DNA from: Ianthella basta
Lineage: Eukaryota; Porifera; Demospongiae; Verongiida; Ianthellidae
DNA: 64,000 bases
Reading direction: 5' to 3'
Assembly (NCBI GenBank): GCA_964019415.1
Contig: OZ025874.1
Coordinates: forward strand, 2,253,512-2,317,511
Shown in pieces: positions 20,406-48,644 of the stretch; the first letter of the stretch is position 1, and each line of letters begins with the position of its first letter. The notes beneath the pieces are model-generated. The model did no database searches. It was given only the letters and a program-made list of their open reading frames with translations, and was not told where the DNA came from. The translations under genes were made by a program, and so were the position numbers.

Positions 20406-21430
20406 ATATATATTTCTGTCATTGCAAATGGCGGCGCTCACGTCAATCTTTACAACGCTTTAAATCCTCGCTAATGATGTTTTGTCGTGTTTGAATCGAA
20501 CGAAATGTGGTCATAAATATGTGTTAATAGAGTCTCTCCATCGCGGTGCAAAGGGGAAATGCTGCCTCAGTGATGGGAACTATGGGGGGCTCCACCTCGC
20601 ATTTTAATTTCTTTGATTGACTGGACTTATTTTTGAGGGGGCACCCCCCTCATCTGACTGCATATTTTTCTTTTATTCTATTTTTCTTTTACTCAGTTTA
20701 TAGCTCAGGCAGTGCGCATGTGTGCCTATAATCTGTAGAATTGAGTGCAGTTAAATTAAGTTGTTGGTTGATTATTGTAAAAAAAAAAGTTAATAGAGTG
20801 ATACTAATAAAAAGCCTAAGGAACGTCTCTTCTGCGAGATACAGCTCCAATTATCACTGACGGACATTGTAAAATGGCTGCACGATCGACGCTTTCTGTT
20901 TGCTAGGCTCAAAACCATCTTTCTTTAGATTTCGCCGTGTATCCAAAGAACGCAAAGTGTTTCTAGAACATGTTTAAGTAATAGTATTGTGGTAGGAAGC
21001 TTACTTAACTGTTTTTCTGCGAGGTACAGCCCTAAATACAACAGAAGTCTAGTGACCCGTAGGCCAATAATGGGAGACCAGCGAATCATGACACATAATT
21101 ATAGCCATGATTCGCTCATAGAGTCATCATAGGGTAGCCTTTTAGCCAGCAGACTCCTCCTCCAGGCACAAAGTAACAATTGCTCATTTAGAATGTAATA
21201 TAGATCAAAAAGCAGTAGGCAAACATTTGACAGTTTGGTAGGGATGCTTTCACTGGATATGGCTGGCTGCTCTGGAGACTTGAACTCTTGCAAACCCAAC
21301 GGTCTAGTGTGTCTTGATGTATCTTTCAGGCCAACAGCAATACTGTACCCCCAACTATCTGATTTACTGAACATACATGGGAAAATTGCTAGCAAGTAGT
21401 ACGAGGTTCAGGGGCGCCCTGGCGCCCCAC
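20406..21430. repeat. Repeat R2, right part of copy 1
   Basis: It starts TCTGTCATTGCAAATGGCGG and ends at GGGGCGCCCTGGCGCCCC. A shorter copy occupies 38171-38890. No convincing gene; short minus-strand frames at 21099-21395 are not supported. Confidence 0.75.
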
Positions 21431-21495
21431 AAGTTTTTGGCCCCTATATTGTTTTCAGATTTAGGTATTTGTATGGCTTCATGTTCGTATATATA
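21431..21495. repeat. Repeat R2, left part of copy 2
   Basis: TATATTGTTTTCAGATTTAG and GTATGGCTTCATGTTCG run into TATATATA, after which the 16.7-kb array begins. Confidence 0.8.
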
Positions 21496-23145
21496 CAGTG
21501 CAAGTTACAATATACACCACTAATCTAAAGTAAATAATATAATATAATATAATATAATATAATATAATATAATATAATATAATATAATATAATTCCCGGG
21601 TGGTTTGGCAGCCCTCATGAACATGTGCTAGGTATGGCTTTGAAGTATGGGAGATTTTAACACTTTTAAATGAGACGGAATTTTTAATTAGGTCTTCGTT
21701 CTTCTACAAGCAGCCCGCAAAATGCTTATATAAATGCACATAGGAGAACACTTAATGTATGGTGCATTTATATTGATGCATAGTGGTATCTTGTATATTA
21801 ATGCAACTCGGCTCGTTGAGACATGAAACTTGGTGGACACGTCCAAGTGGTCCACCTTCCTATGTTATTAGCGGGATTTCTTAATTAGTCTCAAAATGGC
21901 CGACATATGTGAGGTGTATGATTTATACAACCAGCCAGGCCCGCTCAGTCATGACACTTTGTGAACCTAGCCAGATAATCCGACTGTTCATGTCATTAAC
22001 AGGATTTCTTAATTAGTCGCAAAATGGCCAAGAAAAGTTAAGTTCATTGCATATCCCACCAACCCAGCCCCGCTAGGTAGTGATACTAAGTGGACATAGT
22101 TAGATGGTCCATTTGCTCATGTCATTAGCAGGATTGCTTAATTAGTCACAAAATGGAGGCGACCTTTTGAACAATCACATTTTGACACTAATTTGTAGGC
22201 ATTTGCCGCTATGCTGGAGCAGAGCAACACCCACATATACACATGCTCACAACTATTCAGCCACAATATCCAGCTACTATACCACCACATATATAGCTAT
22301 AGATAAATACAACCACCATCACCACCACCACAGTGGAAGTTGCAATGAGTAGCATATTATGTGCTAGAGCTGCAAGAAAACAGACCACCACATCAGGCGC
22401 TGCTACCACATTCTACTACCACCACCACACAGTGCAAGTTACAATATTACGGCCACCACATGCATTCCTAGATGGAAATGACTGCCACCACCACCGCCAC
22501 TCAGTGCAAATTACAATGCATACATTCAGTATATGCACCATTGCTCTAGAAAAAAACACCACCGCCACCACCACCACACAGTGCAAGTTACAATATCACA
22601 GCCACCACCACCTGTGCCAGTAGAGTATCTGCGACAGTTGGTCATAGAAAAAGACCACCAGTGCAAGTTACACTAGCCACCACCACCTGTGCCAGTAGAG
22701 TATCTGCGCTAGTTGGTCATAGAAAAAGACCACCAGTGCAAGTTACAGTAGCCACCACCACATGTGCCAGTAGAGTATCTGCGCTAGTTGGTCATAGAAA
22801 AAGACCACCAGTGCAAGTTACAGTGGCTCCAGGCCAGCACATGCACGCACCATTCCCACCACCACATGTGCCAGAAAGTGAATGCGCTCAATGGCTGAAG
22901 AAAAAGACCACCAGCGCAAGTTACAGCCGGGCAGTACCTGCACCGCCGCCATTGGAGTGCACGCTGCAGCAAGCAATTGTAACTTGCCTAAGGGCATGCC
23001 ATTGAATTTCTTCCCATGCACTCTCAATTCAATGGCATGCCCTTAGGCAAGCTTACATTTGCTTGCTGCAGCGTGCACTCCAATGGCGGCGGTGCAGGTA
23101 CTGCCCGGCTGTAACTTGCGCTGGTGGTCTTTTAATATAATATAA
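21496..23145. repeat. Array unit 1 (forward)
   Basis: It has the end sequence, (TAATA)n at about 21536-21593, the core, the motif-bearing CAC arm from about 22310, the hairpin near 23015 and a truncated right arm. Its core differs from units 2-5 (GGTGGTTTGGCAGCCC instead of GGGGGTTAGGCACCCC) and groups with units 6 and 8. Confidence 0.8.
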
Positions 23146-23151
23146 TATATA

Positions 23152-24942
23152 CAGTGCAAGTTACAATATACACCACTAATCTAAAGTAAATACTATAATA
23201 TAATATAATATAATATAATATAATATAATATAATATAATATAATATAATATAATTCCCGGGGGGTTAGGCACCCCTCACGAACATGTGATAGGTGTGCCT
23301 TTGAAGTATGGGAGATTTTAAGACTTTTAAATGAGGCAGAATTTTTAATTAGGCCTTCGTTCTTCTACAAGCAGCCCGCCAAATCCTAATATAAATGTGC
23401 ATAGCATAACACTTAATGTATGGTACATTTATATTGATGCATAGTGGTATCTTGTATATGAATGCAACTGGGCTCGTTGAGACGTGAAACTTGGTGGACA
23501 CATCTAAGTGGTCCACCTTCCTATGTTATTAGCGGGATTTCTTAATTAGTCTCAAAATGGCCGACATATGTGATGTGTATGATGTATTCAACCAGCCCGG
23601 CCCGCTCAGTCATGACACTTGATGGACCTAGCCAGATAATGCAACTGTTCATGTCATTAGCAGGATTTCTTAATTAGTGGCAAAATGGCCGAGAAAAATG
23701 AGGTTCATTGCATATCTTACCAACCCAGCCCTGCTAAGTCATGATACTAAGTGGATGAAGTTAGATGACCAATTTCCTCATGTCATTAGCAGTATTGCTT
23801 AATTAGTCACAAAATGGAGGCGATGTTTTGAACAATCACATTTTGAAACCAATTTGTAGGCATTTGCCGCTATGCTGGAGCAGAGCAGCACCAACATGTA
23901 CACTTGCTCACAACTATCCAGCCACAATATCCAGCTACTACACCACCACATAGATAAATACAACCGCCATCACCACCACCACAGTGGAAGTTGCAATGAG
24001 CACACCAGTATAATATTATGTGCTAGAGCTGCAAGAAAACAGACCACCACATCAGGCGCTGCTACTATATACTACTACTACCACCACCACACAGTGCAAG
24101 TTACAATATTACGGCCACCACATGCATTCCTAAATGAAAATGACCACCACCACCACCACATGGTGCCAGTACAATGGATGCATTCAGTATATGTGCCATT
24201 GCTCTAGAAAAAACACCGTCACCACCACCACACAGTGCAAGTTACAATATCGCAGCCACCACCACCTGTGCCAGTAAAGTATCTGTGCTAGTTGGTCATA
24301 GAGAAAAAGACCACCAGTGCAAGTTACAGTAGCCACCACCACATGTGCCAGTAGAGTATCTGCACTAGTTGGTCATAGAAAAAGACCACCAGTGCAAGTT
24401 ACAGTGGCACCAGCACCATTCGCACCACCACATGTGCCAGAAAGTGAATGCGCTCAATGGCTGAAGAAAAAGACCACCAGCGCAAGTTACAGCTGGTCAG
24501 AACCTGCACCGCCACCATTGGAGTGCACGCTGCAGCAAGCAAATGTAACTTGCCTAAGGGCATGCCATTGAATTTCTTCCCACGCACCCTCAATTCAATG
24601 GCATGCCCTTAGGTAAGCTTACATTTGCTTGCTGCAGCGTGCACTCCAATGGTGGCGGTGCAGGTTCTGACCAGCTGTAACTTGCGCTGGTGGTCTTTTT
24701 CTTCAGCCATTGAGCGCATTCACTTTCTGGCACATGTGGTGGTGCGAATGGTGCTGGTGCCACTGTAACTTGCACTGGTGGTCTTTTTCTATGACCAACT
24801 AGTGCAGATACTCTACTGGCACATGTGGTGGTGGCTACTGTAACTTGCACTGGTGGTCTTTTTCTCTATGACCAACTAGCACAGATACTTTACTGGCACA
24901 GGTGGTGGTGGCTGCGATATTGTAACTTGCACTGTGTGGTGG
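23152..24942. repeat. Array unit 2 (forward)
   Basis: It restarts with the full CAGTGCAAGTTACAATATAC end. The complementary right arm is retained through GCACTGTGTGGTGG. The hairpin centre is near 24588. Confidence 0.8.
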
Positions 24943-26720
24943 TAATATAATATAATATAATATAATATAATATAATATAATATAATATAATATAATATAA
25001 TATAATTCCCGGGGGGTTAGGCACCCCTCACGAACATGTGATAGGTGTGCTTTTGAAGTATGGGAGATTTTAAGACTTTTAAATGAGGCAGAATTTTTAA
25101 TTAGGCCTTCGTTCTTCTACAAGCAGCCCGCTAAATCTTAATATAAATGTGCATAGCATAATACTTAATGTATGGTGCATTTATATTGATGCATAGTGGT
25201 ATCTTGTATATGAATGCAACTGAGCTCGTTGAGACGTGAAACTTGGTGGACAGATCCAAGTGGTCCACCTTCCTATGTTATTAGCGGGATTTCTTAATTA
25301 GTCTCAAAATGGCCGACATATGTGAGGTGTATGATGTATTCAACCAGCCCGGCCCGCTCAGTCATGACATTTGATGGACCTAGCCAGATAATCCAACTGT
25401 TCATGTCATTAGCAGGGTTTCTTAATTAGACGCAAAATGGCCGAGAAAAATGAGGTTCATTGCATATCTTACCGACCCAGCCCTGCTAAGTCATGATACT
25501 AAGTGGATGCAGTTAGATGACCAATTTCCTCATGTCATTAGCAGTATTGCTTAATTAGTCACAAAATGGAGGCGATGTTTTGAACAATCACATTTTGACA
25601 CCAATTTGTAGGCATTAGCCGCTATGCTGGAGCGGAGCAGCACCAACATGTACACTTGCTCACAACTATCCAGTCACAATATCCAGCTACTACACCACCA
25701 CATAGATAAATACAACCACCATCACCACCACCACAGTGGAAGTTGCAATAAGCACACCAGTATAATATTATGTGCTAGAGCTGCAAGAAAACAGACCACC
25801 ACATCAGGCGCTGCTACCACATACTACTACCACCACCACCACACAGTGCAAGTTACAATATTACGGCCACCACATGCATTCCTAGATGAAAATGACCACC
25901 ACCACCACCACCACCACCACATGGTGCCAGTACAATGCATGCATTCAGTATATGCGCCATTGCTCTAGAAAAAACACCACCACTACCACCACACAGTGCA
26001 AGTTACAATATCGCAGCCACCACCACCTGTGCCAGTAGAGTATCTGTGCTAGTTGGTCATAGAAAAAAGCACCACCAGTGCAAGTTACAGTAGCCACCAC
26101 CACATGTGTCAGTAGAGTATCTGCGCTAGTTGGTCATAGAAAAAGACCACCAGTGCAAGTTACAGTGGCACCAGGCCAGCACATGCACGCACCATTCGCA
26201 CCAACCACATGTGCCAGAAAGTAAATGCGCTCAATGGCTGAAGAAAAAGACCACCAGCGCAAGTTACAGCCGGTCAGAACCTGCACTGCCGCCATTGGAG
26301 TGCACGCTGCAGCAAGCAAATGTAACTTGCCTAAGGGCATGCCATTGAATTTCTTTCCATGCATCCTCAATTCAATGGCATGCCCTTAGGCAAGCTTACA
26401 TTTGCTTGCTGCAGCGTGCACTCCAATGGCGGCAGTGCAGGTTCTGACCGGCTGTAACTTGCGCTGGTGGTCTTTTTCTTCAGCCATTGAGCGCATTTAC
26501 TTTCTGGCACATGTGGTTGGTGCGAATGGTGCTGGTGCCACTGTAACTTGCACTGGTGGTCTTTTTCTATGACCAACTAGCGCAGATACTCTACTGACAC
26601 ATGTGGTGGTGGCTACTGTAACTTGCACTGGTGGTGCTTTTTTCTATGACCAACTAGCACAGATACTCTACTGGCACAGGTGGTGGTGGCTGCGATATTG
26701 TAACTTGCACTGTGTGGTGG
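24943..26720. repeat. Array unit 3 (forward)
   Basis: (TAATA)n opens the unit. Both arms are long, with the hairpin near 26363 and an expanded CAC tract near 25900. Confidence 0.8.
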
Positions 26721-28301
26721 TAATATAATATAATATAATATAATATAATATAATATAATTCCCGGGGGGTTAGGCACCCCTCACGAACATGTGATAGGTG
26801 TGCCTTTGAAGTATGGGAGATTTTAAGACTTTTAAATGAGGCAGAATTTTTAATTAGGTCTTCGTTCTTCTACAAGCAGCCCGCAAAATACTAATATAAA
26901 TGTGCATAGCATAACACTTAATGTATGGTACATTTATATTGATGCATAGTGGTATCTTGTATATTAATGCAACTGGGCTCGTTGAGACGTGAAACTTGGT
27001 GAACACATCCAAGTGGTCCACCTTGCTATGTTATTAGCGGGATTTCTTAATTAGTCTCAAAATGGCCGACATATGTGAGGTGTATGATGTATTCAACCAG
27101 CCCGGCCCGCTCAGTCATGACACTTGATGGACCTAGCCAGATAATCCAACTGTTCATGTCATTAGCAGGATTTCTTAATTAGTTGCGAAATGGCCGAGAA
27201 AAATGAGGTTCATTGCATATCTTAACGACCCAGCCCTGCTAAGTCATGATACTAAGTGGATGAAGTTAGATGACCAATTTGCTCATGTCATTAGCAGTAT
27301 TGCTTAATTAGTCACAAAATGGAGGCGATGTTTTGAACAATCACATTTTGACACCAATTTGTAGGCATTTGCCGCTATGCTGGAGCAGAGCAGCACCAAC
27401 ATGTACACTTGCTCACAACTATCCAGCCACAATATCCAGCTACTCACCACCACATAGATAAATACAACCGCCATCATCACCACCACAGCGGAAGTTGCAA
27501 TGAGCACACCAGTATAATATTATGTGCCAGAGCTGCAAGGAAACAGACCACCACATCAGGTGCTGCTACCACATACTACTACCACCACCACCACACAGTG
27601 CAAGTTACAATATTACAGCCACCCCATGCATTCCTAGATGAAAATGACCACCACCACCACCACATGGTGCCAGTACAATGCATGCATTCAGTATATGCGC
27701 CATTGCTCTAGAAAAAACACCACCACCACCACCACACAGTGCAAGTTACAATATCGCAGCCACCACCACCTGTGCCAGTAGAGTATCTGTGCTAGTTGGT
27801 CATAGAAAAAGACCACCACCAGTGCAAGTTACAGTAGCCACCACCACATGTGTCAGTAGAGTATCTGCGCTAGCTGGTCATGGAAAAAGAACACCAGTGC
27901 AAGTTACAGTAGCCACCACCACATGTGCCAGTAGAATATCTGCGGTAGTTGGTAATTGAAAAAGACCACCAGTGCAAGTTACAGTGGCTCCGGGCCAGCA
28001 CATGCAAGTTACAGCTGGTCAGAACCTGCACTGCTGCCATTGTAATGCACGCTGCAGCAAGCAATTGTAACTTGCCTAAGGGCATGCCATTGAATTTCTT
28101 CCCACCCTCAATTCAATGGCATGCCCTTAGGCAAGCTTACAATTGCTTGCTGCAGCGTGCATTACAATAGCAGCAGTCCAGGTTTTGACCAGCTGTAACT
28201 TGCATGTGCTGGCCCGGAGCCACTGTAACTTGCACTGGTGGTCTTTTTCAATTACCAACTACCGCAGATATTCTACTGGCACATGTGGTGGTGGCTACTG
28301 T
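26721..28301. repeat. Array unit 4 (forward)
   Basis: Shorter arms around a hairpin near 28105. The CAGCAAGCAATTGTAACTTG variant is used at the loop-proximal arm. Confidence 0.8.
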
Positions 28302-29997
28302 AATATAATATAATATAATATAATATAATTCCCGGGGGGTTAGGCACCCCTCATGAACATGTGATAGGTGTGCCTTTGAAGTATGGGAGATTTTAAGACT
28401 TTTAAATGAGGCAGAATTTTTAATTAGGCCTTCGTTCTTCTACAAGCAGCCCGCAAAATTCTAATATAAATGTTCATAGCATAACACTTAATGTATGGTG
28501 CATTTATATTGCATGATGCATAGTGTTATCTTGTATATTAATGCAACTGGGCTCGTTGAGATGTGAAACTTGGTGGACACATCCAAGTGGTCCACCTTCC
28601 TATGTTATTAGCGGGATTTCTTAATTAGTCTCAAAATGGCTGACATATGTGAGGTGTATGATGTATTCAACCAGCCCAGCCCGCTCAGTCATGACACTTG
28701 GTGGGCCTAGCCAGATAATCCAACTGTTCATGTCGTTTGCAGGATTTCTTAATTTGTTGCAAAATGGCCGAGGAAAATGAGGTTCATTGCATATCTTACC
28801 AACCCAGCCCTGCTAAGTCATGATACTAAGTGGATGTAGTTAGATGACCAATTTCCTCATGTCATTAGCAGTATTGTTTAATTAGTCACAAAATGGAGGC
28901 TATGTTTTGAACAATCACATTTTGACACCAATTTGTAGGCATTTGCCGCTATACTGGAGCAGAGCAGCACCAGCATGTACACTTGCTCACAACTATCCAG
29001 CCATAATATCCAGCTACTACACCACCACATAGATAAATACAACCGCCATCACCACCACCACAGTGGAAGTTGCAATGAGCACACCAGTATAATATTATGC
29101 GCTAGAGCTGCAAGGAAACAGACCACCACATCAGGCGCTGTTACCACATACTACTACCACCTCCACACAGTGCAAGTTACAATATTACGGCCACCACATG
29201 CATTCCTAGATGAAAATGACCACCACCACCACCACCACCACATGGTGCCAGTACAATGCATGCATTCAGTATATCCGCCATTGCTCTAGAAAAAACACCA
29301 CCACCACCACCACACAGTGCAAGTTACAATATCGCAGCCACCACCACCTGTGTCAGTAGAGTATCTGTGCTAGTTGGTCATAGAAAAAGACTACCAGTGC
29401 AAGTTACAGTGGCCCCGGACCAGCACACGCACCATTCGCACCACCACATGTGCCTGAAAGTAAATGCGCTCAATGGCTGAAGAAAAAGACCACCAGCGCA
29501 AGTTACAGCCGGTCAGAACCTGCACCGCCGCCATTGGAGTGCACGCTGCAGCAAGCAATTGTAACTTGCCTAAGGGCATGCCATTGAATTTCTTCCCATG
29601 CACCCTCAATTCAATGGCATGCCCTTAGGCAAGCTTACATTTGCTTGCTGCAGCGTGCACTCCAATGGCGGCGGTGCAGGTTCTGACCGGCTGTAACTTG
29701 CGCTGGTGGTCTTTTTCTTCAGCCATTGAGCGCATTTACTTTCAGGCACATGTGGTGGTGCGAATGGTGCGTGTGCTGGTAGTAACTTGCACTGGTAGTC
29801 TTTTTCTATGACCAACTAGCACAGATACTCTACTGACACAGGTGGTGGTGGCTGCGATATTGTAACTTGCACTGTGTGGTGGTGGTGGTGGTGTTTTTTC
29901 TAGAGCAATGGCGCATATACTGAATGCATGCATTGAAACTTGCACAGTGTGGTGGTGGTGGCGGTCATTTTCATCTAGGAATGCATGTGGTGGCCGT
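28302..29997. repeat. Array unit 5 (forward)
   Basis: Hairpin near 29605. The right arm reaches further than in other units and includes a complementary copy of the GTATATGCGCCATTGCTC segment. Confidence 0.8.
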
Positions 29998-31661
29998 AAT
30001 ATAATATAATATAATATAATATAATATAATATAATTCCCGGGTGGTTTGGCAGCCCTCATGAACATGTGCTAGGTATGGCTTTGAAGTATGGGAGATTTT
30101 AACACTTTTAAATGAGACGGAATTTTTAATTAGGTCTTCGTTCTTCTACAAGCAGCCCGCAAAATGCTTATATAAATGCACATAGGAGAACACTTAATGT
30201 ATGGTGCATTTATATTGATGCATAGTGGTATCTTGTATATTAATACAACTCGGCTCGTTGAGACATGAAACTTGGTGGACACGTCCAAGTGGTCCACCTT
30301 CTTATGTTATTTGCGGGATTTCTTAATTAGTCTCAAAATGGCCGACATATGTGAGGTGTATGATTTATACAACCAGCCAGGCCCGCTCAGTCATGACACT
30401 TTGTGAACCTAGCCAGATAATCCGACTGTTCATGTCATTAACGGGATTTCTTAATTAGTCGCAAAATGGCCGAGAAAAGTGAAGTTCATTGCATATCCCA
30501 CCAACCCAGCCCCGCTAAGTAGTGATACTAAGTGGACATAGTTAGATGGTCCATTTGCTCATGTCATTAGTAGGATTGCTTAATTAGTCACAAAATGGAG
30601 GCGATGTTTTGAACAATCACATTTGTAGGCATTTGCCGCTATGCTGGAGCAGAGCAGCACCCACATATACACATGCTCACAACTATTCAGCCACAATATC
30701 CAGCTACTATACCACCACATATATAGATAAATACAACCACCATCACCACCACCACAGTGGAAGTTGCAATGAGTAGCATATTATGTGCTAGAGCTGCAAG
30801 AAAACAGACCACCACATCCGGCGCTGCTACCACATACTACTACCACCACCACACAGTGCAAGTTACAATATTACGGCCACCACATGCATTCCTAGATGAA
30901 AATGACTGCCACCACCACCGCCACTCAGTGCAAATTACAATGCATACATTCAGTATATGCACCATTGCTCTAGAAAAAAACACCACCGCCACCACCACCA
31001 CACAGTGCAAGTTACAATATCACAGCCACCACCACCTGTGCCAGTAGAGTATCTGCGACAGTTGGTCATAGAAAAAGACCACCAGTGCAAGTTACACTAG
31101 CCACCACCACCTGTGCCAGTAAAGTATCTGCGCTAGTTGGTCATAGAAAAAGACCACCAGTGCAAGTTACAGTAGCCACCACCACATGTGCCAGTAGAGT
31201 ATCTGCGCTAGTTGGCCATAGAAAAAGACCACCAGTGCAAGTTACAGTGGCTCCAGGCCAGCACATGCACGCACCATTCGCACCACCACATGTGCCAGAA
31301 AGTGAATGCGCTCAATGGCTGAAGAAAAAGACCACCAGCGCAAGTTACAGCCGGGCAGTACCTGCAACGCCGCCATTGGAGTGCACGCTGCAGCAAACAA
31401 TTGTAACTTGCCTAAGGGCATGCCATTGAATTTCTTCCCATGCACTCTCAATTCAATGGCATGCCCTTAGGCAAGCTTACATTTGCTTGCTGCAGCGTGC
31501 ACTCCAATGGCGGCGGTGCAGGTACTGCCCGGCTGTAACTTGCGCTGGTGGTCTTTTTCTTCAGCCATTGAGCGCATTCACTTTCTGGCATATGTGGTGG
31601 TGCGAATGGTGCGTGCATGTGCTGGCCTGGAGCCACTGTAACTTGCACTGGTGGTCTATAC
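29998..31661. repeat. Array unit 6 (forward)
   Basis: Core of the unit-1 subtype, hairpin near 31446, right arm cut short at GGTGGTCTATACAGTGC. Confidence 0.8.
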
Positions 31662-32920
31662 AGTGCAAGTTACAATATACACCACTAATCTAAAGTAAAT
31701 AATATAATATAATATAATATAATATAATATAATATAATATAATATAATATAATATAATTCCCGGGGGGTTAGGCACCCCTCACGAACATGTGATAGGTGT
31801 GCTTTTGAAGTATGGGAGATTTTAAGACTTTTAAATGAGGCAGAATTTTTAATTAGGCCTTCGTTCTTCTACAAGCAGCCCGCTAAATTTTAATATAAAT
31901 GTACATAGCATAACACTTAATGTATGGTGCATTTATATTGATGCATAGTGGTATCTTGTATATGAATGCAACTGGGCTCGTTGAGACGTGAAACTTGGTG
32001 GACACATCCAAGTGGTCCACCTTCCTATGTTATTAGCGGGATTTTTTAATTAGTCTCAAAATGGCCGACATATGTGAGGTGTATGATGTATTCAACCAGC
32101 CCGGCCCGCTCAGTCATGACATTTGATGGACCTAGCCAGATAATCCAACTGTTCATGTCATTAGCAGGATTTCTTAATTAGTCACAAAATGGCCGAGAAA
32201 AATGAGGTTGATTGCATATCTTACTGACCCAGCCCTGCTAAGTCATGATACTAAGTGGATGTAGTTAGATGACCAATTTGCTCATATCATTAGCAGTATT
32301 GCTTAATTAGTCACAAAATGGAGGCGATGTTTTGAACAATCACATTTTGACACCAATTTGTAGGCATTTGTCGCTATGCTGGAGCAGAGCAGCACCAACA
32401 TATACACTTGCTCACAACTATCCAGCCACAATATCCAGCTACTACACCACCACATAGATAAATACAACCACCATCACCACTATTATGTGCTAGAGCTGCA
32501 AGAAAACAGACCACCACATCAGGCGCTGCTACCACATACTACTACCACCACCACACAGTGCAAGTTACAATATTACGGCCACCACATGCATTCCTAGATG
32601 AAAATGACCGCCACCACCACCACACTGTGCAAGTTTCAATGCATGCATTCAGTATATGCGCCATTGCTCTAGAAAAAACACCACCACCACCACCACACAG
32701 TGCAAGTTACAATATCACAGCCACCACCACCTGTGTCAGTAGAGTATCTGTGCTAGTTGGTCATAGAAAAAGACTACCACCAGTGCAAGTTACAGTGGCT
32801 ACCACCACATGTGCCAGTAGAGTATCTGTGCTAGTTGGTCATAGAAAAAGACCACCAGTGCAAGTTACAGTGGCCCCGGACCAGCACACGCACCATTCGC
32901 ACCACCACATGCAATTTCTC
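31662..32920. repeat. Array unit 7 (forward half unit)
   Basis: It has the end sequence, (TAATA)n, core and left arm but no hairpin or right arm. It stops at CACCACATGCAATTTC, where the diverged spacer begins. Confidence 0.75.
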
Positions 32921-34770
32921 TACTTCTCTACTCTACACTCTACTTGCACTTGGGCAGAACACGGTTCACATATAGTGCCCAAGTGCAAGTTGCATACCTG
33001 TTGCTGCATCCTGCTCCAACTTGTGCTGTTCGACTAGCACCAACACTGTACTTGCATTCATAGTGGTCCCCCACTGCATGCCAATCAATACTGGTGCCTG
33101 GTCCCCCTGACCTTCAGCAACTTGCGCTGGTGTTTTTTTCCTTCCTTCAACTAGCGCAAACACTCTACTTGCACTCGGGGTGGTTACTCTCGGCAACTTG
33201 CACTAGCGGCCTTGTTCATAGAAGCACTGGCGCACATACTGAATGCGCACATTGCAACTTGCACTGTGTGGTGGTGGTGGGTGCTGGTGGTGATGGTGCT
33301 GGTGGTGTATATATAGCACAAACACTCTACCTGCACTCGGGGTGGTTACCCTTGGCAACTTGCACTGGTGGTTTTGTTCCTAGTAGCACTTGCACATATA
33401 CTGCATGCTCAGATTGTAACTTGCACTGTGGAAGTGGTGCCATGGGATAGTAGCATGTGGTGGTTGTATAATGTTGGCTGTACATGTATTTGTATGTGGC
33501 AGTCAGTGCTGGCAGTTGTGCACTTGCGCGCTAGCTTGCCTTTGGCAGGATTCTGTACAAATACCCTATCATCATTTGTCTCACCATATGTGAATGTGGA
33601 AGTCAGTGGTAGTGATGGAGCACTTGTAAAAAAGCTTGCCTTCAGTGGTGAGTGTGCCAGTTGGTAAGCGAAGAAATGCAAGGTGCACACACACTGGAAG
33701 TGTGTGGTGTCAATGCATATGGCTATATTTATGCATGTGAAATGCCACCATAGCTAAAGTCTATGGTGCAATACACACTACGGAAAGCTATAGTGTACAG
33801 GCACATACACAATGAGCCACATGGGAGTTTATTTCTTTCACCGAATCAGGCAAGCATAGCACAGTGTTAACTCAGAAGAGGCTTCATCCAGTAGAGCGCA
33901 TTGACTCGCGGCAAGCCAACTTGCGCGAGCGCGCTCCTGCTTACCGTATACGCGTCCGGGTGGAAACGTCCCACGTTTGACTAATGGTTGAAGAGTACGC
34001 TGCTAGCACTTACGGCAGCATTTCTCGGAACACTTCCTCAAGGCTCTGCCTCCACAAAGGCCGTGCGTCTTCCCAGTACCCACTGATTCGCTGTCTTCGC
34101 GCAGTAGGCACTCAGAGTCGTCTGGAAACTCTCTCACGCTCGCGTAACCCCCAAATTCAGAGGCGCCCTTGGCGCTTGCACACAGTTCCTGGCAATGTGT
34201 TTCAAAGAGAAGCGTGCGCTGCGGCCCTTTCTTCTTGCCAGCGGCTTTAAGGAGGTCTTTGAGGTGCGAAAGGTGACATCACGAAACGAACGCTATATTT
34301 TGGAGCGACTAGGGTGTGACGTTTGCGTGATGTCACAATAAAACGTCACCGTTCCATGACGTCACACTAGATTGTCAGCCTTCTAATTGAACAGCAGAGT
34401 CTTTAATTACTAATCCCTGCTGAGTGCACAGCCTCATCGACCACTTGCACTTGCCTACAAAGTTTTGTGAGCATTTGCCGGATTTTTATATTAAATTATT
34501 ATAGCACCCACTATCAGTATAAATGTGCTATAGTAATGATATGGGGCTATGGCATTTTATATTTGCAATTTGGCGCCACCTTGCACGTAAACAAAGACCT
34601 AATTAAAAATTCTGTCATATTTAAAATCGTTAAATTTCCCTTAAGTTTGCCATCTTACCAATGGTCTGTGCCACAGGGTGCCCAAAGTCCCCAAACATTA
34701 TATTACATTATTTTATGGCTTCAATACCCTTGTATTTTGCAACTTGCACTGTATATATATATATATATAC
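32921..34770. other. Spacer between forward and inverted units, with diverged repeats
   Basis: The segment 32980-33480 holds degenerate copies of GTAACTTGCACTG and GTGGTGG blocks. The segment 34470-34760 resembles an old inverted unit core (GACCTAATTAAAAATTCTG). The segment 33830-34440 looks unique, with GC-richer sequence and a plus-strand frame at 33984-34250 that I cannot assign. Confidence 0.6.
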
Positions 34771-36366
34771 CACCATCACCACCACCACACAGTGCAAGTT
34801 ACAATATCACAGCCACCACCACCTGTGCCAGTAGAGTATCTGCGACAGTTGGTCATAGAAAAAGACCACCAGTGCAAGTTACAGTAGCCACCACCACCTG
34901 TGCCAGTAGAGTATCTGCGCTAGTTGGTCATAGAAAGCAAGCAAATGTAAGCTTGCCTAAGGGCATGCCATTGAATTGAGAGTGCATGGGAAGAAATTCA
35001 ATGGCATGCCCTTAGGCAAGTTACAATTGCTTGCTGCAGCGTGCACTCCAATGGCGGCGGTGCAGGTACTGCCCGGCTGTAACTTGCGCTGGTGGTCTTT
35101 TTCTTCAGCCATTGAGCGCATTCACTTTCTGGCACATGTGGTGGTGCGAATGGTGCGTGCATGTGCTGGCCTGGAGCCACTGTAACTTGCACTGGTGGTC
35201 TTTTTCTATGACCAACTAGCGCAGATACTCTACTGGCACAGGTGGTGGTGGCTACTGTAACTTGCACTGGTGGTCTTTTTCTATGACCAACTGTCGCAGA
35301 TACTCTACTGGCACAGGTGGTGGTGGCTGTGATATTGTAACTTGCACTGTGTGGTGGTGGTGGCGGTGGTGTTTTTTCTAGAGCAATGGTGCATATACTG
35401 AATGTATGCATTGTAATTTGCACTGAGTGGCGGTGGTGGTGGCAGTCATTTCCATCTAGGAATGCATGTGGTGGCCGTAATATTGTAACTTGCACTGTGT
35501 GGTGGTGGTAGTAGTATGTGGTAGCAGCGCCTGATGTGGTGGTCTGTTTTCTTGCAGCTCTAGCACATAATATGCTACTCATTGCAACTTCCACTGTGGT
35601 GGTGGTGATGGTGGTTGTATTTATCTATATATGTGGTGGTATAGTAGCTGGATATTGTGGCTGAATAGTTGTGAGCATGTGTATATGTGGGTGCTGCTCT
35701 GCTCCAGCATAGCGGCAAATGCCTACAAATTGGTGTCAAAATGTGATTGTTCAAAAGGTCGCCTCCATTTTGTGACTAATTAAGCAATCCTGCTAATGAC
35801 ATGAGCAAATGGACCATCTAACTATGTCCACTTAGTATCACTACTTAGCGGGGCTGGGTTGGTGGGATATGCAATGAACTTCACTTTTCTCGGCCATTTT
35901 GCGACTAATTAAGAAATCCTGTTAATGACATGAACAGTCGGATTATCTGGCTAGGTTCACAAAGTGTCATGACTGAGCGGGCCTGGCTGGTTGTATAAAT
36001 CATACACCTCACATATGTCGGCCATTTTGAGACTAATTAAGAAATCCCGCTAATAACATAGGAAGGTGGACCACTTGGACGTGTCCACCAAGTTTCATGT
36101 CTCAACGAGCCGAGTTGCATTAATATACAAGATACCACTATGCATCAATATAAATGCACCATACATTAAGTGTTCTCCTATGTGCATTTATATAAGCATT
36201 TTGCGGGCTGCTTGTAGAAGAACGAAGACCTAATTAAAAATTCCGTCTCATTTAAAAGTGTTAAAATCTCCCATACTTCAAAGCCATACCTAGCACATGT
36301 TCATGAGGGCTGCCAAACCACCCGGGAATTATATTATATTATATTATATTATATTATATTATATTA
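34771..36366. repeat. Array unit 8 (inverted)
   Basis: Reverse orientation of the unit-1/6 subtype, with hairpin near 34984, core about 35700-36330 and inverted (TAATA)n at its right edge. Confidence 0.8.
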
Positions 36367-38170
36367 CCACACAGTGCAAGTTACAATATCGCAGCCACCA
36401 CCACCTGTGCCAGTAAAGTATCTGTGCTAGTTGGTCATAGAGAAAAAGACCACCAGTGCAAGTTACAGTAGCCACCACCACATGTGCCAGTAGAGTATCT
36501 GCACTAGTTGGTCATAGAAAAAGACCACCAGTGCAAGTTACAGTGGCACCAGCACCATTCGCACCACCACATGTGCCAGAAAGTAAATGCGCTCAATGGC
36601 TGAAGAAAAAGACCACCAGCGCAAGTTACAGCTGGTCAGAACCTGCACCGCCACCATTGGAGTGCACGCTGCAGCAAGCAAATGTAAGCTTACCTAAGGG
36701 CATGCCATTGAATTGAGGGTGCGTGGGAAGAAATTCAATGGCATGCCCTTAGGCAAGTTACATTTGCTTGCTGCAGGGTGCACTCCAATGGTGGCGGTGC
36801 AGGTTCTGACCAGCTGTAACTTGCGCTGGTGGTCTTTTTCTTCAGCCATTGAGCGCATTTACTTTCTGGCACATGTGGTGGTGCGAATGGTGCTGGTGCC
36901 ACTGTAACTTGCACTGGTGGTCTTTTTCTATGACCAACTAGTGCAGATACTCTACTGGCACATGTGGTGGTGGCTACTGTAACTTGCACTGGTGGTCTTT
37001 TTCTCTATGACCAACTAGCACAGATACTTTACTGGCACAGGTGGTGGTGGCTGCGATATTGTAACTTGCACTGTGTGGTGGTGGTGGTGGTGTTTTTTCT
37101 AGAGCAATGGCACATATACTGAATGCATCCATTGTACTGGCACCATGTGGTGGTAGTGGTGGTCATTTTCATTTAGGAATGCATGTGGTGGCCGTAATAT
37201 TGTAACTTGCACTGTGTGGTGGTGGTAGTAGTAGTATGTAGTAGCAGCGCCTGATGTGGTGGTCTGTTTTCTTGCAGCTCTAGCACATAATATTATACTG
37301 GTGTGCTCATTGCAACTTCCACTGTGGTGGTGGTGATGGCGGTTGTATTTATCTATGTGGTGGTGTAGTAGCTGGATATTGTGGCTGGATAGCTGTGAGC
37401 AAGTGTACATGTTGGTGCTGCTCTGCTCCAGCATAGCGGCAAATGCCTACAAATTGGTGTCAAAATGTGATTGTTCAAAACATCGCCTCCATTTTGTGAC
37501 TAATTAAGCAATACTGCTAATGACATGAGGAAATTGGTCATCTAACTTCATCCACTTAGTATCATGACTTAGCAGGGCTGGGTCGGTAAGATATGCAATG
37601 AACCGCATTTTTCTTGGCCATTTTGCCACTAATTAAGAAATCCTGCTAATGACATGAACAGTTGCATTATCTGGCTAGGTCCATCAAGTGTCATGACTGA
37701 GCGGGCCGGGCTGGTTGAATACATCATACACATCACATATGTCGGCCATTTTGAGACTAATTAAGAAATCCCGCTAATAACATAGGAAGGTGGACCACTT
37801 GGATGTGTCCACCAAGTTTCACGTCTCAACGAGCCCAGTTGCATTCATATACAAGATACCACTATGCATCAATATAAATGCACCATACATTAAGTGTTAT
37901 GCTATGCACATTTATATTAGGATTTTGCGGGCTGCTTGTAGAAGAACGAAGACCTAATTAAAAATTCTGCCTCATTTAAAAGTCTTAAAATCTCCCATAC
38001 TTCAAAGGCACACCTATCACATGTTCGTGAGGGGTGCCTAACCCCCCGGGAATTATATTATATTATATTATATTATATTATATTATATTATATTATTTAC
38101 TTTAGATTAGTGGTGTATATTGTAACTTGCACTGTATTTAGATTAGTGGTGTATATTGTAACTTGCACTG
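36367..38170. repeat. Array unit 9 (inverted)
   Basis: Reverse orientation of the unit-2 subtype, hairpin near 36720, ending with inverted (TAATA)n (about 38053-38098) and the inverted end sequence present twice. Confidence 0.8.
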
Positions 38171-38890
38171 TATATATATATCTGTCATTTTGCAAATGGC
38201 GGCACTCACCTCAATCTTTGCAAAGCTTAAAATCATCTCCAATGGCGTTTCGCCGTATCTCAATCGAACGAAATGTGTTCAAGAAGATGTTTTGATAGAG
38301 TGATACTCGTAAGAAGCCTAACAAAGGACTCTTCTGCGAGATACAGCTCTAATTATCACTGACGGACATTGTAAAATGGCCGCGCTCGACGCTCTGTTTG
38401 CTAGGCTCATAATCATCTTTCTTCGTATTTGAACGCAAAGTCTTTCTAGAACATGTTTAAGTAATAGTATTGTAGTAGAAAGCTTATCTAACTATTCTCC
38501 TGTGAGGTACAGCCCCAAATATAACAGAGGTCGAATGACCCATTGGCCAATGAGAGACAAATCGAGTCATGGCATTACCACTTAGGGTAGCAGTTTTAGC
38601 CACCACACTCCTCCTCCAGGCACAAAGCAACATGTGCATCCTCATTCAGAATGTTATGTAGATCAAAAAGCATCAGCGAAGCATTTTGACAGTTTGGTAG
38701 GGGTGCTTTCACTGGATGACTTCCTGGTCTGGAGACTTGAAACTCTTGCAACCTCAACAGTCTATCCGTGGTATCGTGATGTATCTTTCACACCAGCAGC
38801 AATACTGCATACCCAGCAATCTAAACTATTGAACATACATAGGAAAGTTCTTAGCAAGTAGTTCGAGTTCAGGGGCGCCCCGGCACCCCA
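38171..38890. repeat. Repeat R2, right part of copy 2
   Basis: TCTGTCATTTTGCAAATGGC through GGGGCGCCCCGGCACCCC, colinear with 20406-21430 but shorter. Confidence 0.75.
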
Positions 38891-38924
38891 CGAGTTTTTT
38901 TAACTCGAAATACTTGTTATGGCA

Positions 38925-43056: not shown

Positions 43057-46000
43057 ATGGCGGGTGGAGACCCCTTACCCGAATCAGGAGCCGCCCTTGT
43101 CGCAAACCTTCCGATCGACTGGCGAGTTGTCAACGCTGACCTACGGGCTGACCTAGATGTCCTACATCACTAGTTATCATCTCGTTCTATTAGTATCTCC
43201 GCTGCCGAGGAGGCGTTTGTCACCATCACCATTAGCACCTTATCGCGGAGCAACCTCCTGAAGGAAAAGCGTCTGGAAATCAACCCGCGTGGGCCTCACC
43301 GCCTCTTATCAATCCAGAAGACAGCACGGAACTTGGCTATGGCCAAGAACAGCCTTCGTGGGTCCATCTCCACCAACCCTAGGCCCTTCTTAAACGCAGT
43401 TAGGGCACATAACAAAGTGGCCAAAGCGGCAGCTGACGCCGCTAACCACCGCTCCACCCTACAACAGGAGAGGAAGTACCACCAGAATCCTTTCGAGTTT
43501 GCTAGATCAAAGAAGAACCAACCCCCAGAGTTCAGCGCACAAAGTGCACACCAGTTCCTACGGACATCATTCAGCTAAGAATTGTGCACCTATGCGGGCC
43601 TCCCTGATTGGATCCACTCCGTGATGCCCACCCCCTAATGAGGAAACCTTTTGACATGTCTCCCATTACCCCTAGCCTAGTCAAACGTGCCCTGAGGAAA
43701 TGCTCTACCAAGTCATCCCCCGGCTGCAACGGCATTTCCTTGTTATCACCTGAAGCACCTAACGACCACCCACCATTTCCTTACTACTTTATTCTCTCGC
43801 ATCCTACTTGATGAACACAGCTGCCCCCCATCCTGGTGTGTTGGAAAGATCCCTCTTGTACACAAGTCAGGTCCCCCATCTGAGCCTAGCTCCTTCTGTC
43901 CCATTGCCCTGACCTCCACAGTGGGGAAGCTATTCAACCGCATCATTGCCAGTCACCTAGAACACTTCGTTCTTGCAAACGATATCATCGACCCTTCTAC
44001 ACAGAAAGGCTTCCTATCTGGAATCCCAGGTGTGATTGAGCATATCTTCACCACCTCAGCCATTCTGAGCAACGCCAAGACGAATGGTCTCCCGCTGTAT
44101 TTGACCTTCCTGGATCTCAGCAATGCCTTTGGCTCCATCTCTCACCAGCTGATCGCAGATATGCTAAAACACATATGCATCCCCACCCCAGTCATCAGCT
44201 ACATCAGCAACACCTACTCTCAACTGAAGGGCTTCGCCTCCTCACCTAACTGGACAACCAATGTGTTCCCGATAGAACGTGGGGTTTTTCAAGGTGACAC
44301 TCTGTCCCCAATGATCTTCCTCATTGCCTTCAACCCCATTGTGGAACTAGCTAACATGGACAAGGCATCAGGCTTCTCCCTCAGATACCCCGTCCCATCT
44401 TCAGCGAAGTGAACGCTCATATCTATGTGGAGTGGAACGAGCCCTCATCAGATGAACCCCCTGGTTGGTACCGCTGCTCTGTCACCGAGTACTCGCCTGC
44501 TGGCCTGTCCACAGTCCTGTACGCCAATGGCAGCACCGAAACAGTTGACCTTCGCACAGTGCAGCGGCACCTTGCCACAGGCAACTCCAGACATTTCTTG
44601 TCCAGGGTCAGCACGCCACCCACTGCAAAGGTCCCAAAAGTGAGGGCAAAGCTCCAAGACACCAAGTTCTTCAAAACCCGTCCCCACAGAGCCAAGGCAT
44701 ACTGTGATGACCTGTCCCTGATATCGACCAATCGTGAAGAACACAAGTCTGCCCTCGGCCTCATCGATGCCCGCTGTAAATGCCTGGATCTCCACCTAAA
44801 GCCATCAAAGTGTATCTCCCTGGCATTTGATGGTAAGAGGATTGTCCCCAACGCCACCTTTCCCCTCTCTTCTGGCAGCACCACCAACATCCATGACCAC
44901 CCGACCAAGTTCCTTGGGAAGACCCTAGCCGACTGCCCCAAGTCTACCGGCCAGAGCGCTTCACAGCGGTTGAAGGAACTCATTCTGCCCCAACTCACAG
45001 CTCTGGACGAAACACCAGTCAGGGGTGAATACAAGACATGGATGTTGAACCACTCACTGCTACCATCCCTACACTTCCACCTCATGGTAAATGACATCCC
45101 CAAGAGCCATGTCTATTCCCTTCAGAGGCTGCTCACAAGAATGGTGAAGAAGTGGCTGCACCTCCCTCGCTGCACCACTCCATCTGCTATTTTTCATCCG
45201 AACAGCCTTGACCTGAAGTTCCTCCCGCTATTCCTGGAAGAGGCCAAGATGTCACTGCTGACAACGGTGGTTCACTCTACTGATCCACATGTTCTTGAGT
45301 GTCTCCCCTCTCTGCAGGACCCGTCTTACCTGAAGGCTTCCTATCTTGATCCAAAGGCTGTGGAGCAGTTCCAAACAGCCGTTGCCCAGTGCAGAGCCGA
45401 GCCATACACCCCTAAGAAGCCGCAGGTGCTTGCCAAGTGTAAGAAGCTGACGAGCGAGAAGCAGGTGCAGGATTGGGAGAACCATCTCAGCCAGCTCACT
45501 GTCCAGAATGGTCTTTTAGACATCCTCCCTCTTGGTGCAGAAGACCACCTCTGGCAGCGCTTCCTCACAGGAATGCCAGCGGGTCAGCTGTCCTTTATAC
45601 TGAGGGCAAGCTGCGACTGTCTACCATGCCCAAGCTCCCTGGTCCGATGGGGCTACTCACTTAACCGGCAGTGCCCTCTGTGCAATGGCCCCCTCTGCAA
45701 CATGCAACACGTGTTGAATTGCTGCCCAACAGCCCTGACTGATGGCAGGTACACATGGCGACATGACTTGGTGCTCACCGCCCTACTCCCATTCTTGCAG
45801 AGGTTTAATCCAGAAACCTTCGTCTATGCAGACCTGCCGGATCACAGAGCATGTGAATCTCCTCCAGCAACCATTCCCCCCACCATCATTGGGACCACCG
45901 CTCGGCTGGATCTCCTTATTGTGGATGGTAAGCGTGCTACCATGTTAGAACTCACTGTGCCCTGGAACAACCTCACCAGCATCAAGAATGCTAGAGCCCG

Positions 46001-46160
46001 GAAGCAGGGGAAGACCAACTACCAGCTTTTGGCTTTGAACCTATCTGCCCAGGGTTACCAAGTTCAACTGCTGACAATTGAGATTGGCAGCCTAGGCCAC
46101 TACACGCACGAGGCCTATACAGCTCTAAGGCTTGCTGCCCCCCCAGAGCAAAGCCTCTGA
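43057..46160 (+). pseudogene. LINE (non-LTR) with Tudor-like insertion in RT and restriction-like endonuclease; decayed 5' half
   Basis: A Met frame starts at 43057 (MAGGDPLPESGAALV) with TAG at 43171 and TAA after 43578, then shifts frame at least three times before 44409. RT pieces are ALRKCSTKSSPGCNGIS, GKLFNRIIASHLEHF, LYLTFLDLSNAFGSISH and RGVFQGDTLSPM. The intact 583-codon frame 44409-46160 begins with about 90 residues resembling a Tudor/SH3-like fold (WNEPSSDEPPGWYRCSV, VLYANGSTETVDLRTV) inserted between RT motifs. The YCDD catalytic motif follows (AKAYCDDLSLIS). Near the C-terminus are CPLCNGPLCNMQHVLNCC (zinc knuckle) and RLDLLIVDGKRATMLELTVP with ARARKQGKTNYQLL, the PD-(D/E)XK-type endonuclease of R2-superclade elements. 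It cannot make a full polyprotein. Confidence 0.8.
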
Positions 46161-48366: not shown

Positions 48367-48644
48367 TGATGCCTGAGCCAGCTGAGAAGCCCTCACTTCA
48401 TAGCTACGTATATACCACACTCAAGTGTAATAGCCACTGGAGGCAAAGGCCAAGAGTGAATTTTACTTAGCATCATGCATGAAGTATAAGTAAAAAAATA
48501 CTGCATCTATCATGTCAAGTTCAAGTGTTCGCAACGGTACTTTGTCGCACTCCAGATGTCACCCAGTTGCCATGGTAACATGATAATGATGGCTACAGTA
48601 TTATGATACTTTGTTATGGTACTGTCTGCTCCATGTGCATGCAG

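Follow-up and report, generated by a model that had tools for sequence, protein, structure and literature searches.

Within a 64,000-nucleotide window of the Ianthella basta genome (contig OZ025874.1), a palindromic array occupies positions 21496-38170, and the question that it raises is what kind of DNA could have built it. An earlier note offered two possibilities, one giant composite foldback element or a satellite grown inside a transposon. The best reading of the array is a third one, namely a common small mobile DNA present in stacked copies, and not one giant element.

Layout of the array

Self-comparison and feature mapping of the window bear out the count of about nine units, seven forward and two inverted, that the note had given (Table 1). 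The fixed plan described there, consisting of (TAATA)n, a core of about 730 bp, an arm with CAGTGCAAGTTAC motifs, a hairpin and a complementary arm, is followed in eight of the nine units and breaks down in the seventh forward unit, which lacks a hairpin and ends in its first arm at about 32911. The (TAATA)n tracts of the forward units start at 21534, 23190, 24943, 26721, 28301, 29997 and 31699, with a spacing of 1580-1778 bp, and those of the two inverted units end at 36366 and 38096; internal tandem repeats of 75 bp and about 129 bp are present besides. The inverted member of a diverged sister family at 32912-34751 was absent from the note. The outermost ends are indeed inverted copies of one sequence, 41 bp long, at 21496-21536 and 38094-38134, and the right end of the array bears an extra tandem copy of 36 bp (38135-38170). 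This terminus stands immediately before just three of the seven forward units. Long matches between units are about 85-98% identical in the window self-comparison, so that a plain collapse of identical repeats is unlikely, as judged from the assembly and not from reads.

The idea that the two outer ends bound one giant element is not supported, and we reject it because the 41-bp terminus marks the end of every single copy, preceding single copies elsewhere in both orientations, and because other clusters lack a bounding pair of inward-facing termini. At one locus (L006), two termini lie head to head in the middle of the cluster. The suggestion of a satellite grown inside a transposon comes closer, with the difference that growth looks like the insertion of copies into copies and not like amplification of a monomer. 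The forward and inverted blocks are most simply taken as separate insertions into palindromic (TA)n.

Table 1. Features of the array and its flanks, in window coordinates
Feature	Position	Strand	Remarks
Host repeat XY, left side	20406..21495	+	(TA)n at its end houses the array
Older Y part, interrupted	20406-21438	+	Within left host repeat XY
X end of next XY copy	21440-21495	+	Ends in (TA)n
Unit 1 terminus	21496..21536	+	41 bp; outer left border; ATA before it
Unit 1 (TAATA)n tract	21534..21593	+	Landing pad
Unit 1 core	21594..22330	+	
Unit 1 first arm	22331..22989	+	CAGTGCAAGTTAC motifs and 75-bp repeats
Unit 1 hairpin	22990..23044	+	19-bp inner stems and loop
Unit 1 second arm	23045..23133	-	89 bp; 0/67 mismatches past first 22 nt
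Unit 2	23152..24943	+	Terminus, tract, core 23255-23981, hairpin 24556-24610
Unit 2 second arm			333 bp; 0/311 mismatches
Unit 3	24943..26722	+	No terminus of its own; tract, core 25007-25733, hairpin 26333-26387
Unit 3 second arm			335 bp; single 15-bp gap relative to first arm
Unit 4	26721..28303	+	No terminus; core 26760-27485, hairpin 28078-28128, second arm 175 bp
Unit 5	28301..30002	+	No terminus; core 28330-29060, hairpin 29572-29626
Unit 5 second arm			376 bp; patchwork in part
Unit 6	29997..31657	+	No terminus; core 30036-30754, hairpin 31414-31468, second arm 189 bp
Unit 7	31661..32911	+	Terminus 31661-31701, tract, core 31759-32480, first arm; hairpin absent
Sister family B member	32912..34751	-	Inverted; own terminus at 34751, own palindrome near far end
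(TA)n	34752..34769	.	Separates element B from inverted units
Unit 8	34770..36366	-	Inverted; no terminus directly in front; hairpin 34959-35013, core 35597-36327, tract 36328-36366
Unit 9	36366..38134	-	Inverted; second arm 330 bp, hairpin 36696-36750, core 37325-38051
Unit 9 tract and terminus	tract 38052-38096, terminus 38094-38134	-	
Second tandem terminus	38135..38170	-	36 bp; outer right border
Host repeat XY, right side	38171..38918	+	(TA)n and Y part

Terminus and target site

The note had called for a search of the same genome for other copies with these ends and for an empty site, and both searches gave matches. In the 209-Mb assembly, a 36-letter terminus pattern has 731 matches at no more than two mismatches, against none for the reversed control. 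Each copy is a non-coding element of roughly 1.4-2 kb with a precise left end, ATACAGTGCAAGTTAC..., and ATA directly precedes the terminus (ATA|CAGTG) in all 65 termini examined, in a sample that is centred on termini and draws 30 of its 34 sequence blocks from one contig (C1). The flanks of the array, X on the left and Y on the right, are two parts of one repeat, whose uninserted form X-(TA)n-Y was found 114 times (55+59; reversed control 0); the array borders are therefore real. Eleven of the 65 termini abut this XY repeat (8 on the X side, 3 on the Y side), while 19 follow a TAATA tract, 8 follow another terminus directly and 4 stand head to head with one.

The point of insertion is T|A. 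The surrounding repeat is either (TA)n or the (TAATA)n tract that follows the terminus in the copies themselves, 40 bp inside the older one. The phase of the tract is nearly fixed: the same base comes last in 18 of 19 left junctions, and resumption of the tract at the next base is compatible with 16 of 17 right junctions. Thus all but at most two insertions use a single step of the 5-bp repeat, which fits a simple T|A insertion, although a target duplication in multiples of 5 bp would be invisible. No 8-10-bp target-site duplication was seen at sites that are mostly microsatellites, and visual inspection of L041, L047 and L050, three copies in which one flank is not a microsatellite, showed none of 9-10 bp, which is a weak test.

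Probable nesting of copies

An element that targets TA-rich repeats and carries one internally can be expected to land repeatedly in its own copies. A new copy landing in the tract of an old one leaves an orphan terminus on one side and a terminus-less body on the other; because each new copy splits an older one, repetition of this step gives head-to-tail arrays, and since (TA)n is palindromic, copies are inserted in inverted orientation too, so that the array comes to look palindromic. The neighbourhoods of the parts can be compared with this picture. Downstream of the 65 termini there is a core in 33 cases, another terminus in 21 and something else in 11, four of which continue by eye into a core through an irregular tract. 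Upstream of 59 cores there is a terminus (33), a second arm (14), other sequence (11, two of them second-arm ends by eye) or a block edge (1). Self-insertion explains both the terminus-on-terminus pile-ups (21/65) and the terminus-less bodies. The forward strand of the window holds three termini and seven bodies, so that four termini must have been lost, and nesting by itself does not give such loss.

The second arm

The second arm of each unit is a mirror of its first arm, 58-678 bp long in the 31 right ends measured. The merged blocks contain 55 hairpins, of which 24 yielded no right end (12 had no arm match from the hairpin, 10 were cut by a block edge and 2 had no core nearby). Among 28 units, arm divergence within a unit has a mean of 0.9% and a median of 0, computed after removal of the inherited asymmetry, which inflates the mean, against a between-unit median of 5.7% (re-pairing test, p ~1e-5). 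Rare variants were shared by both arms of one unit in 14 cases and by two different units in one; another 16 variants were present in one arm only. In a tree, the arms group by unit and not by side; two apparent cross-pairings look like slice-end artefacts, as those units show 0 mismatches. The second arm of the same unit is the sole nearest relative of the first in 10 of the 28 units, is tied in 7 and is not the nearest in 11; the low share of sole nearest relatives is due to near-identical sister copies. Beyond the first 22 nt, 15 of the 31 right ends show no arm mismatch at all. The length of the second arm is not the same in sister copies: in one such pair, C13/C1, that is 99.8% identical over 1092 bp, the second arms measure 336 and 145 bp and both are mismatch-free.

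Differences between the arms that recur from copy to copy are confined to the neighbourhood of the hairpin. In 39 hairpins, they fall outside the 19-bp inner stem at positions 4 (11 hairpins), 8 (36) and 14 (13); past position 15 and as far as position 59, no difference recurs more than twice; the 35 counted at position 60 are a slice-end artefact. The inherited asymmetry thus ends about 33 nt from the loop. The right ends themselves have two regularities. The last base is T in 26 of 31 (expected share 0.318, p 3e-9), and 18 of 31 fall 5-22 nt past a motif copy (null 0.19-0.25), which pure run-off would not predict, yet they are not located at the motif edge. In units 3 and 5 the second arm departs from the first by a 15-bp gap or by stretches like the alleles of other units, so that recombination or template switching also acts. 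From left to right, the arm mismatches of window units 1-6 are 0/67, 0/311, 0/313, 3/153, 4/353 and 2/167, a rise that would fit younger units on the left.

From these arms we infer that the second arm is made by snap-back synthesis from the terminal palindrome, with gene conversion as a less likely source of the match. A single DNA strand would be laid down from the precise end through the core and first arm to the palindrome; its 3' end would fold back at the stem of about 33 bp and be extended by 58-678 nt on its own first arm, and the extended end would then be connected to the opposite side of the T|A target, in most cases via a single shared T. As a whole, the picture of a self-nesting stack of non-coding copies with one precise end, T|A insertion and a snap-back second arm has, in our judgement, an even chance of being right. 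The stronger statement, that copying-in is one-ended, that the inverted arm is rebuilt at each insertion by self-primed snap-back and that nested arrays arise because the element brings its own landing pad, is put forward tentatively, at somewhat below an even chance.

Relation to known elements

The note knew of no family with this architecture, and the precedent that exists is partial, coming from plant SaTar/MuTAnT elements and from HINEs. As far as the portions of the literature available to us describe them, the Helentron/HINE elements (DINE-1, oyster Cg_HINE, Pearl) are non-autonomous rolling-circle elements that are likewise non-coding and have a left-end microsatellite, internal tandem repeats and a short repeat a few nucleotides from the left end, of which an inverted copy stands immediately before a palindrome. 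They make no target-site duplication, which the tract phase seen here would fit. The element has its counterpart of the 11-15-bp subTIR placed 2-5 nt from the 5' end, namely GTGCAAGTTAC, 5 nt inside ATACA; its inverted copy in the left hairpin stem matches at 9 of 11 letters in family A and at all 11 in family B, and the hairpin lies directly 3' of GTAACTTGC. In the right stem the motif is interrupted by an extra base in 36 of 39 hairpins. The left microsatellite and internal tandem repeats are present as well. In the same partial descriptions, however, HINEs target T-rich or TT sites and have a precise end no more than about 60 bp from the 3' subTIR, whereas this element targets T|A in (TA)n or (TAATA)n, and its far end is a variable mirror arm, reaching 58-678 nt beyond the inner stem in the 31 right ends measured. 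The anatomy resembles that of Helentrons and HINEs but departs from it in two defining features. Read from left to right, the parts come as a short repeat close to the end, a microsatellite, internal tandem repeats, and an inverted short repeat with a palindrome, and this order suggests a rolling-circle, Helentron/HINE-like element that would be mobilised by an unseen partner; a route by reverse transcription would be expected to give the same picture.

The plant elements SaTar, MuTAnT, Micron, TAFT and Ac-mMITE are non-autonomous Mutator-like elements that share the targeting of (TA)n and the formation of clusters joined by microsatellite, and MuTAnT is a fold-back element with 144-bp terminal repeats. 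They have two defined terminal repeats, and some members make 9-10-bp duplications, whereas here only one end is precise. The SaTar and pineapple clusters are reported as non-nested, and among over 300 guayule clusters none was interrupted; for MuTAnT, twenty copies had nested insertions or rearrangements of unstated kind. Unlike in the SaTar and pineapple clusters, new copies here interrupt older ones within the tract of the latter. Long inverted arms containing internal tandem repeats, as found here, are also known from FB of Drosophila and the TU elements of sea urchin, where they surround a middle part and have a link to satellite-like arrays. The Drosophila element Tetris is similar in both respects; in the part of its description available to us, it carries two terminal repeats, makes 8-10-bp duplications and forms arrays from amplified internal repeats, not from nested whole elements. 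A Tc1/mariner MITE, with a TA duplication and CAGT...ACTG at both ends, was put aside, since the right end is no terminus: the motif marks the left end only, and the right ends lie elsewhere. No description of self-nesting through an element's own microsatellite was found in the open-licence literature, nor in the accessible portions of the Helentron/HINE reports.

No mobilising enzyme or coding partner was found among the ORFs of the window and the sampled loci. Pfam scans of 10 window ORFs and 20 locus ORFs, and of 58 short frames from L044 and L042 (out of 84 that included L052), gave no plausible partner. L044 has weak zinc-finger matches that are situated in a tandem repeat, and at L046 one Helitron_like_N ORF lies beside an element, with no shared ends seen. 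Rfam gave no match in the window at gathering level and a single chance-level match in one unit, ARAGORN (bacterial code) found no tRNA-like part, and the terminus has 0 matches in IMG/VR.

Alternative explanations

A cut-and-paste fold-back transposon, Mutator and SaTar/MuTAnT-like or of another superfamily, is an unlikely explanation that still deserves serious weight. Its transposase would pair the left end with one of the many inverted motifs in an inherited second arm, and gene conversion would keep the arms identical. Repeated terminal motifs in the arms, with 18 of the 31 right ends shortly past one, speak for it, as do the existence of fold-back plant MULEs that target (TA)n and the exchange evident in the patchwork arms. 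Against this, the right ends miss the motif edge, the three copies inspected by eye show no duplication, for what that weak test is worth, and conversion would have to spare only the 15 positions beside the inner stem, where 36 of 39 hairpins keep the asymmetry, and homogenise all that lies farther out. A SINE-like retroposon, whose RNA, with the terminus at its 3' end, would prime at T|A by target-primed reverse transcription and whose cDNA would snap back at a hairpin at the RNA 5' end, we consider quite unlikely. It would account for one precise and one variable end, for the T overlap at the variable junction and for an ATA that needs no target match beyond A/T, and LINE-type ORFs for reverse transcriptase and endonuclease occur in the window and in L050. 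Most copies examined, however, span core and arm and stop only past the hairpin, as random 5' truncation would not; the Rfam and tRNA searches lend it nothing, and no LINE sharing the element's end was seen in the window and the sampled loci.

Growth in the style of a satellite, in which one or a few insertions multiplied into tandem units by unequal crossing-over between tracts and arms, is very unlikely. The four forward-strand bodies without terminus and the similar unit lengths are what it would produce, but the neighbours 2, 3 and 4 are about 93% alike, yet unit 2 is 99% like copies on other contigs, and neither the terminus-tract-terminus pile-ups nor the fixed junction phase is predicted. 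That the array is an artefact of misjoined palindromic repeats is scarcely credible: palindromes are difficult to assemble and the case was judged from the assembly and not from reads, but the units differ by several percent and the same grammar recurs in the other clusters examined.

Implications

If the second arm is rebuilt at each insertion, fold-back arms in other genomes may be insertion products and not inherited terminal repeats. The family touches on two open questions, the origin and lasting identity of fold-back arms and the path from dispersed elements to satellite-like arrays. With its hundreds of natural insertions, its dated arms and known empty sites, and a nesting grammar that can be counted, it makes regeneration, gene conversion and crossing-over separable by sequence.

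Layout of the array and its host repeat

The assembly that contains the window comprises 209 Mb in 96 contigs. An earlier note had described the array as about nine units, seven forward and two inverted, and comparison of the window with itself bears this out. Each unit runs from a (TAATA)n tract through a ~730-bp core and a motif-bearing arm to a hairpin and a complementary arm, and the CAGTGCAAGTTAC motifs of the first arm stand inside 75-bp repeats; the fixed plan proposed in the note holds to this extent, with the exception of unit 7, from which the hairpin is missing. An inverted member of the diverged sister family B sits between unit 7 and the inverted units. As had also been claimed, the outermost ends are inverted copies of one sequence: both are the 41-bp terminus (the precise left end of each copy), which is doubled at the right.

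The flanks of the array, X and Y, are parts of a single ~865-bp repeat with a (TA)n stretch ~70 bp from one end. Two copies of this repeat follow each other in the window, and the array occupies the (TA)n of the second. The search for an empty site, which had been suggested as a check, found uninterrupted X-(TA)n-Y in 114 matches (about 100 of them among the matches listed) against 0 for the control. The array borders are genuine. The host repeat is the favoured landing site in the genome, where it accounts for 11 of 65 termini; it is present as tandem copies too, and has GGCGCC palindromes close to its ends.

Features of the window and of the sampled loci (L) and contigs (C)
Position	Feature	Remark
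2999-4708	ORF	DUF6729
20406-21495 and 38171-38918; also L056-L067	~865-bp host repeat	
21496-38170	Array	
32912-34751	Family B member	inverted
44409-46160	ORF	weak RVT_1
48611-49969	ORF	AIG1 GTPase
50692-52769	ORF	RVT_1 LINE fragments
57122-59730	Transposase-like gene, DDE_1 domain	inverted GGGGTAATTTGAAA repeats on both flanks; Cys-rich frame downstream, presumably PHD-like
L003 (C57:27820-31694), L004 (C1:4095613-4099487)	Sampled blocks	identical feature maps
L044:4393-4433	Terminus identical to the array's	then strongly diverged core and different tandem repeat (by eye)
L048:4619-4939, L049:4588-4909	Family A copies	in family B 5' end, TAATA-like tract
C1:1348193, C1:10595552	Loop and asymmetric stem inverted relative to element	
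L038:4342	Same inversion	by eye

Proposed self-nesting of the element

The terminus has 731 matches genome-wide, and the 100 of these among the matches listed are all on contig C1. Blocks were picked around termini, giving 34 non-overlapping blocks (30 on C1) and 263,508 bases including the window. The 63-kb contig C57, which carries L003, is perhaps an unpurged second haplotype. ATA precedes the terminus in 65/65 cases in this sample; the sequence before it is a TAATA tract in 19, another terminus in 8, at least four TA in 11 and something else in 27, 4 of which stand head-to-head with another terminus. The terminus is conserved across families, since that of L044 is identical despite its diverged core and different repeat.

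In the TAATA tracts the left junction falls at the same repeat base in 18/19 cases, and beyond the far end the tract resumes with the next base in 14/17 (16/17 when arm overlap is allowed for); insertion therefore takes place between T and A, at one site per 5-bp repeat, and no loss or duplication modulo 5 is visible in these insertions. A copy landing in the TAATA tract of an older copy parts that copy's terminus from its body. The next feature after the 65 termini is a core in 33, another terminus in 21 and something other in 11, while the 59 core starts are preceded by a terminus (33), a second arm (14), another feature (11) or a block edge (1); we attribute the termini behind termini and the cores behind second arms to insertions that split older copies. 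The inverted half of the array, which reads terminus-terminus-body-body, is a balanced nest. The forward half is unbalanced, with three termini versus seven bodies, and our guess is that termini were lost from terminus-tract-terminus repeats. Neighbouring copies can be inverted because the (TA)n target is palindromic. The family A copies at L048 and L049 end within the complementary arm of B, and family B therefore has a mirror arm too.

Comparison with known elements

The published anatomy of HINE runs subTIR, microsatellite, tandem repeats, inverted subTIR and palindrome, and the Ianthella element has the same order of parts. In family A the inverted motif (9/11 letters) lies in the left stem directly before the palindrome, and in the right stem it is broken by one extra base in 36/39 hairpins; in family B it has 11/11 letters. 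The Ianthella element differs from HINE in its imprecise far end and T|A target, and for these reasons a HINE classification was set aside. The plant elements SaTar and MuTAnT share the (TA)n target and the clusters, but SaTar clusters are described as never nested. A Helitron-type ORF adjoins one copy (L046) and may be a chance neighbour.

Proposed renewal of the mirror arm

Arms were compared in 28 units that retain 140 bp or more of each arm. Their divergence averages 0.9% within units (median 0) and 21% between units (median 5.7%), and the observed sum was never approached in 100,000 random re-pairings. Of the rare variants, 14 are shared by the two arms of one unit and 1 by two different units, and 16 are confined to a single arm. 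The right end could be measured at 31 of 55 hairpins in the sampled blocks (in the others, 12 had no arm match at the hairpin start, 10 were cut by a block edge and 2 had no nearby core). These second arms are 58-678 nt long; 15/31 have zero mismatches past the first 22 nt, and the final base is a T overlapping the target in 26/31. In copies from different contigs that share 99.8% identity across 1.1 kb, the second arms measure 336 versus 145 nt. The loop and asymmetric stem are inverted in 2 of 45 oriented hairpins.

Outside the 19-bp inner stem, shared stem differences occur at positions 4, 8 and 14 (11, 36 and 13 of 39 hairpins); beyond position 14 none is common to more than 2/39, barring a slice-end artefact at position 60. 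Since the asymmetry is confined to these positions, ~33 nt of the stem are inherited unchanged and the remainder is renewed. Gene conversion could also keep the arms alike, and exchange with other copies does occur in units 3 and 5; conversion would, however, need to skip exactly the inherited stem. Self-primed copying from the terminal palindrome would be expected to leave just such an inherited stem and a renewed arm.
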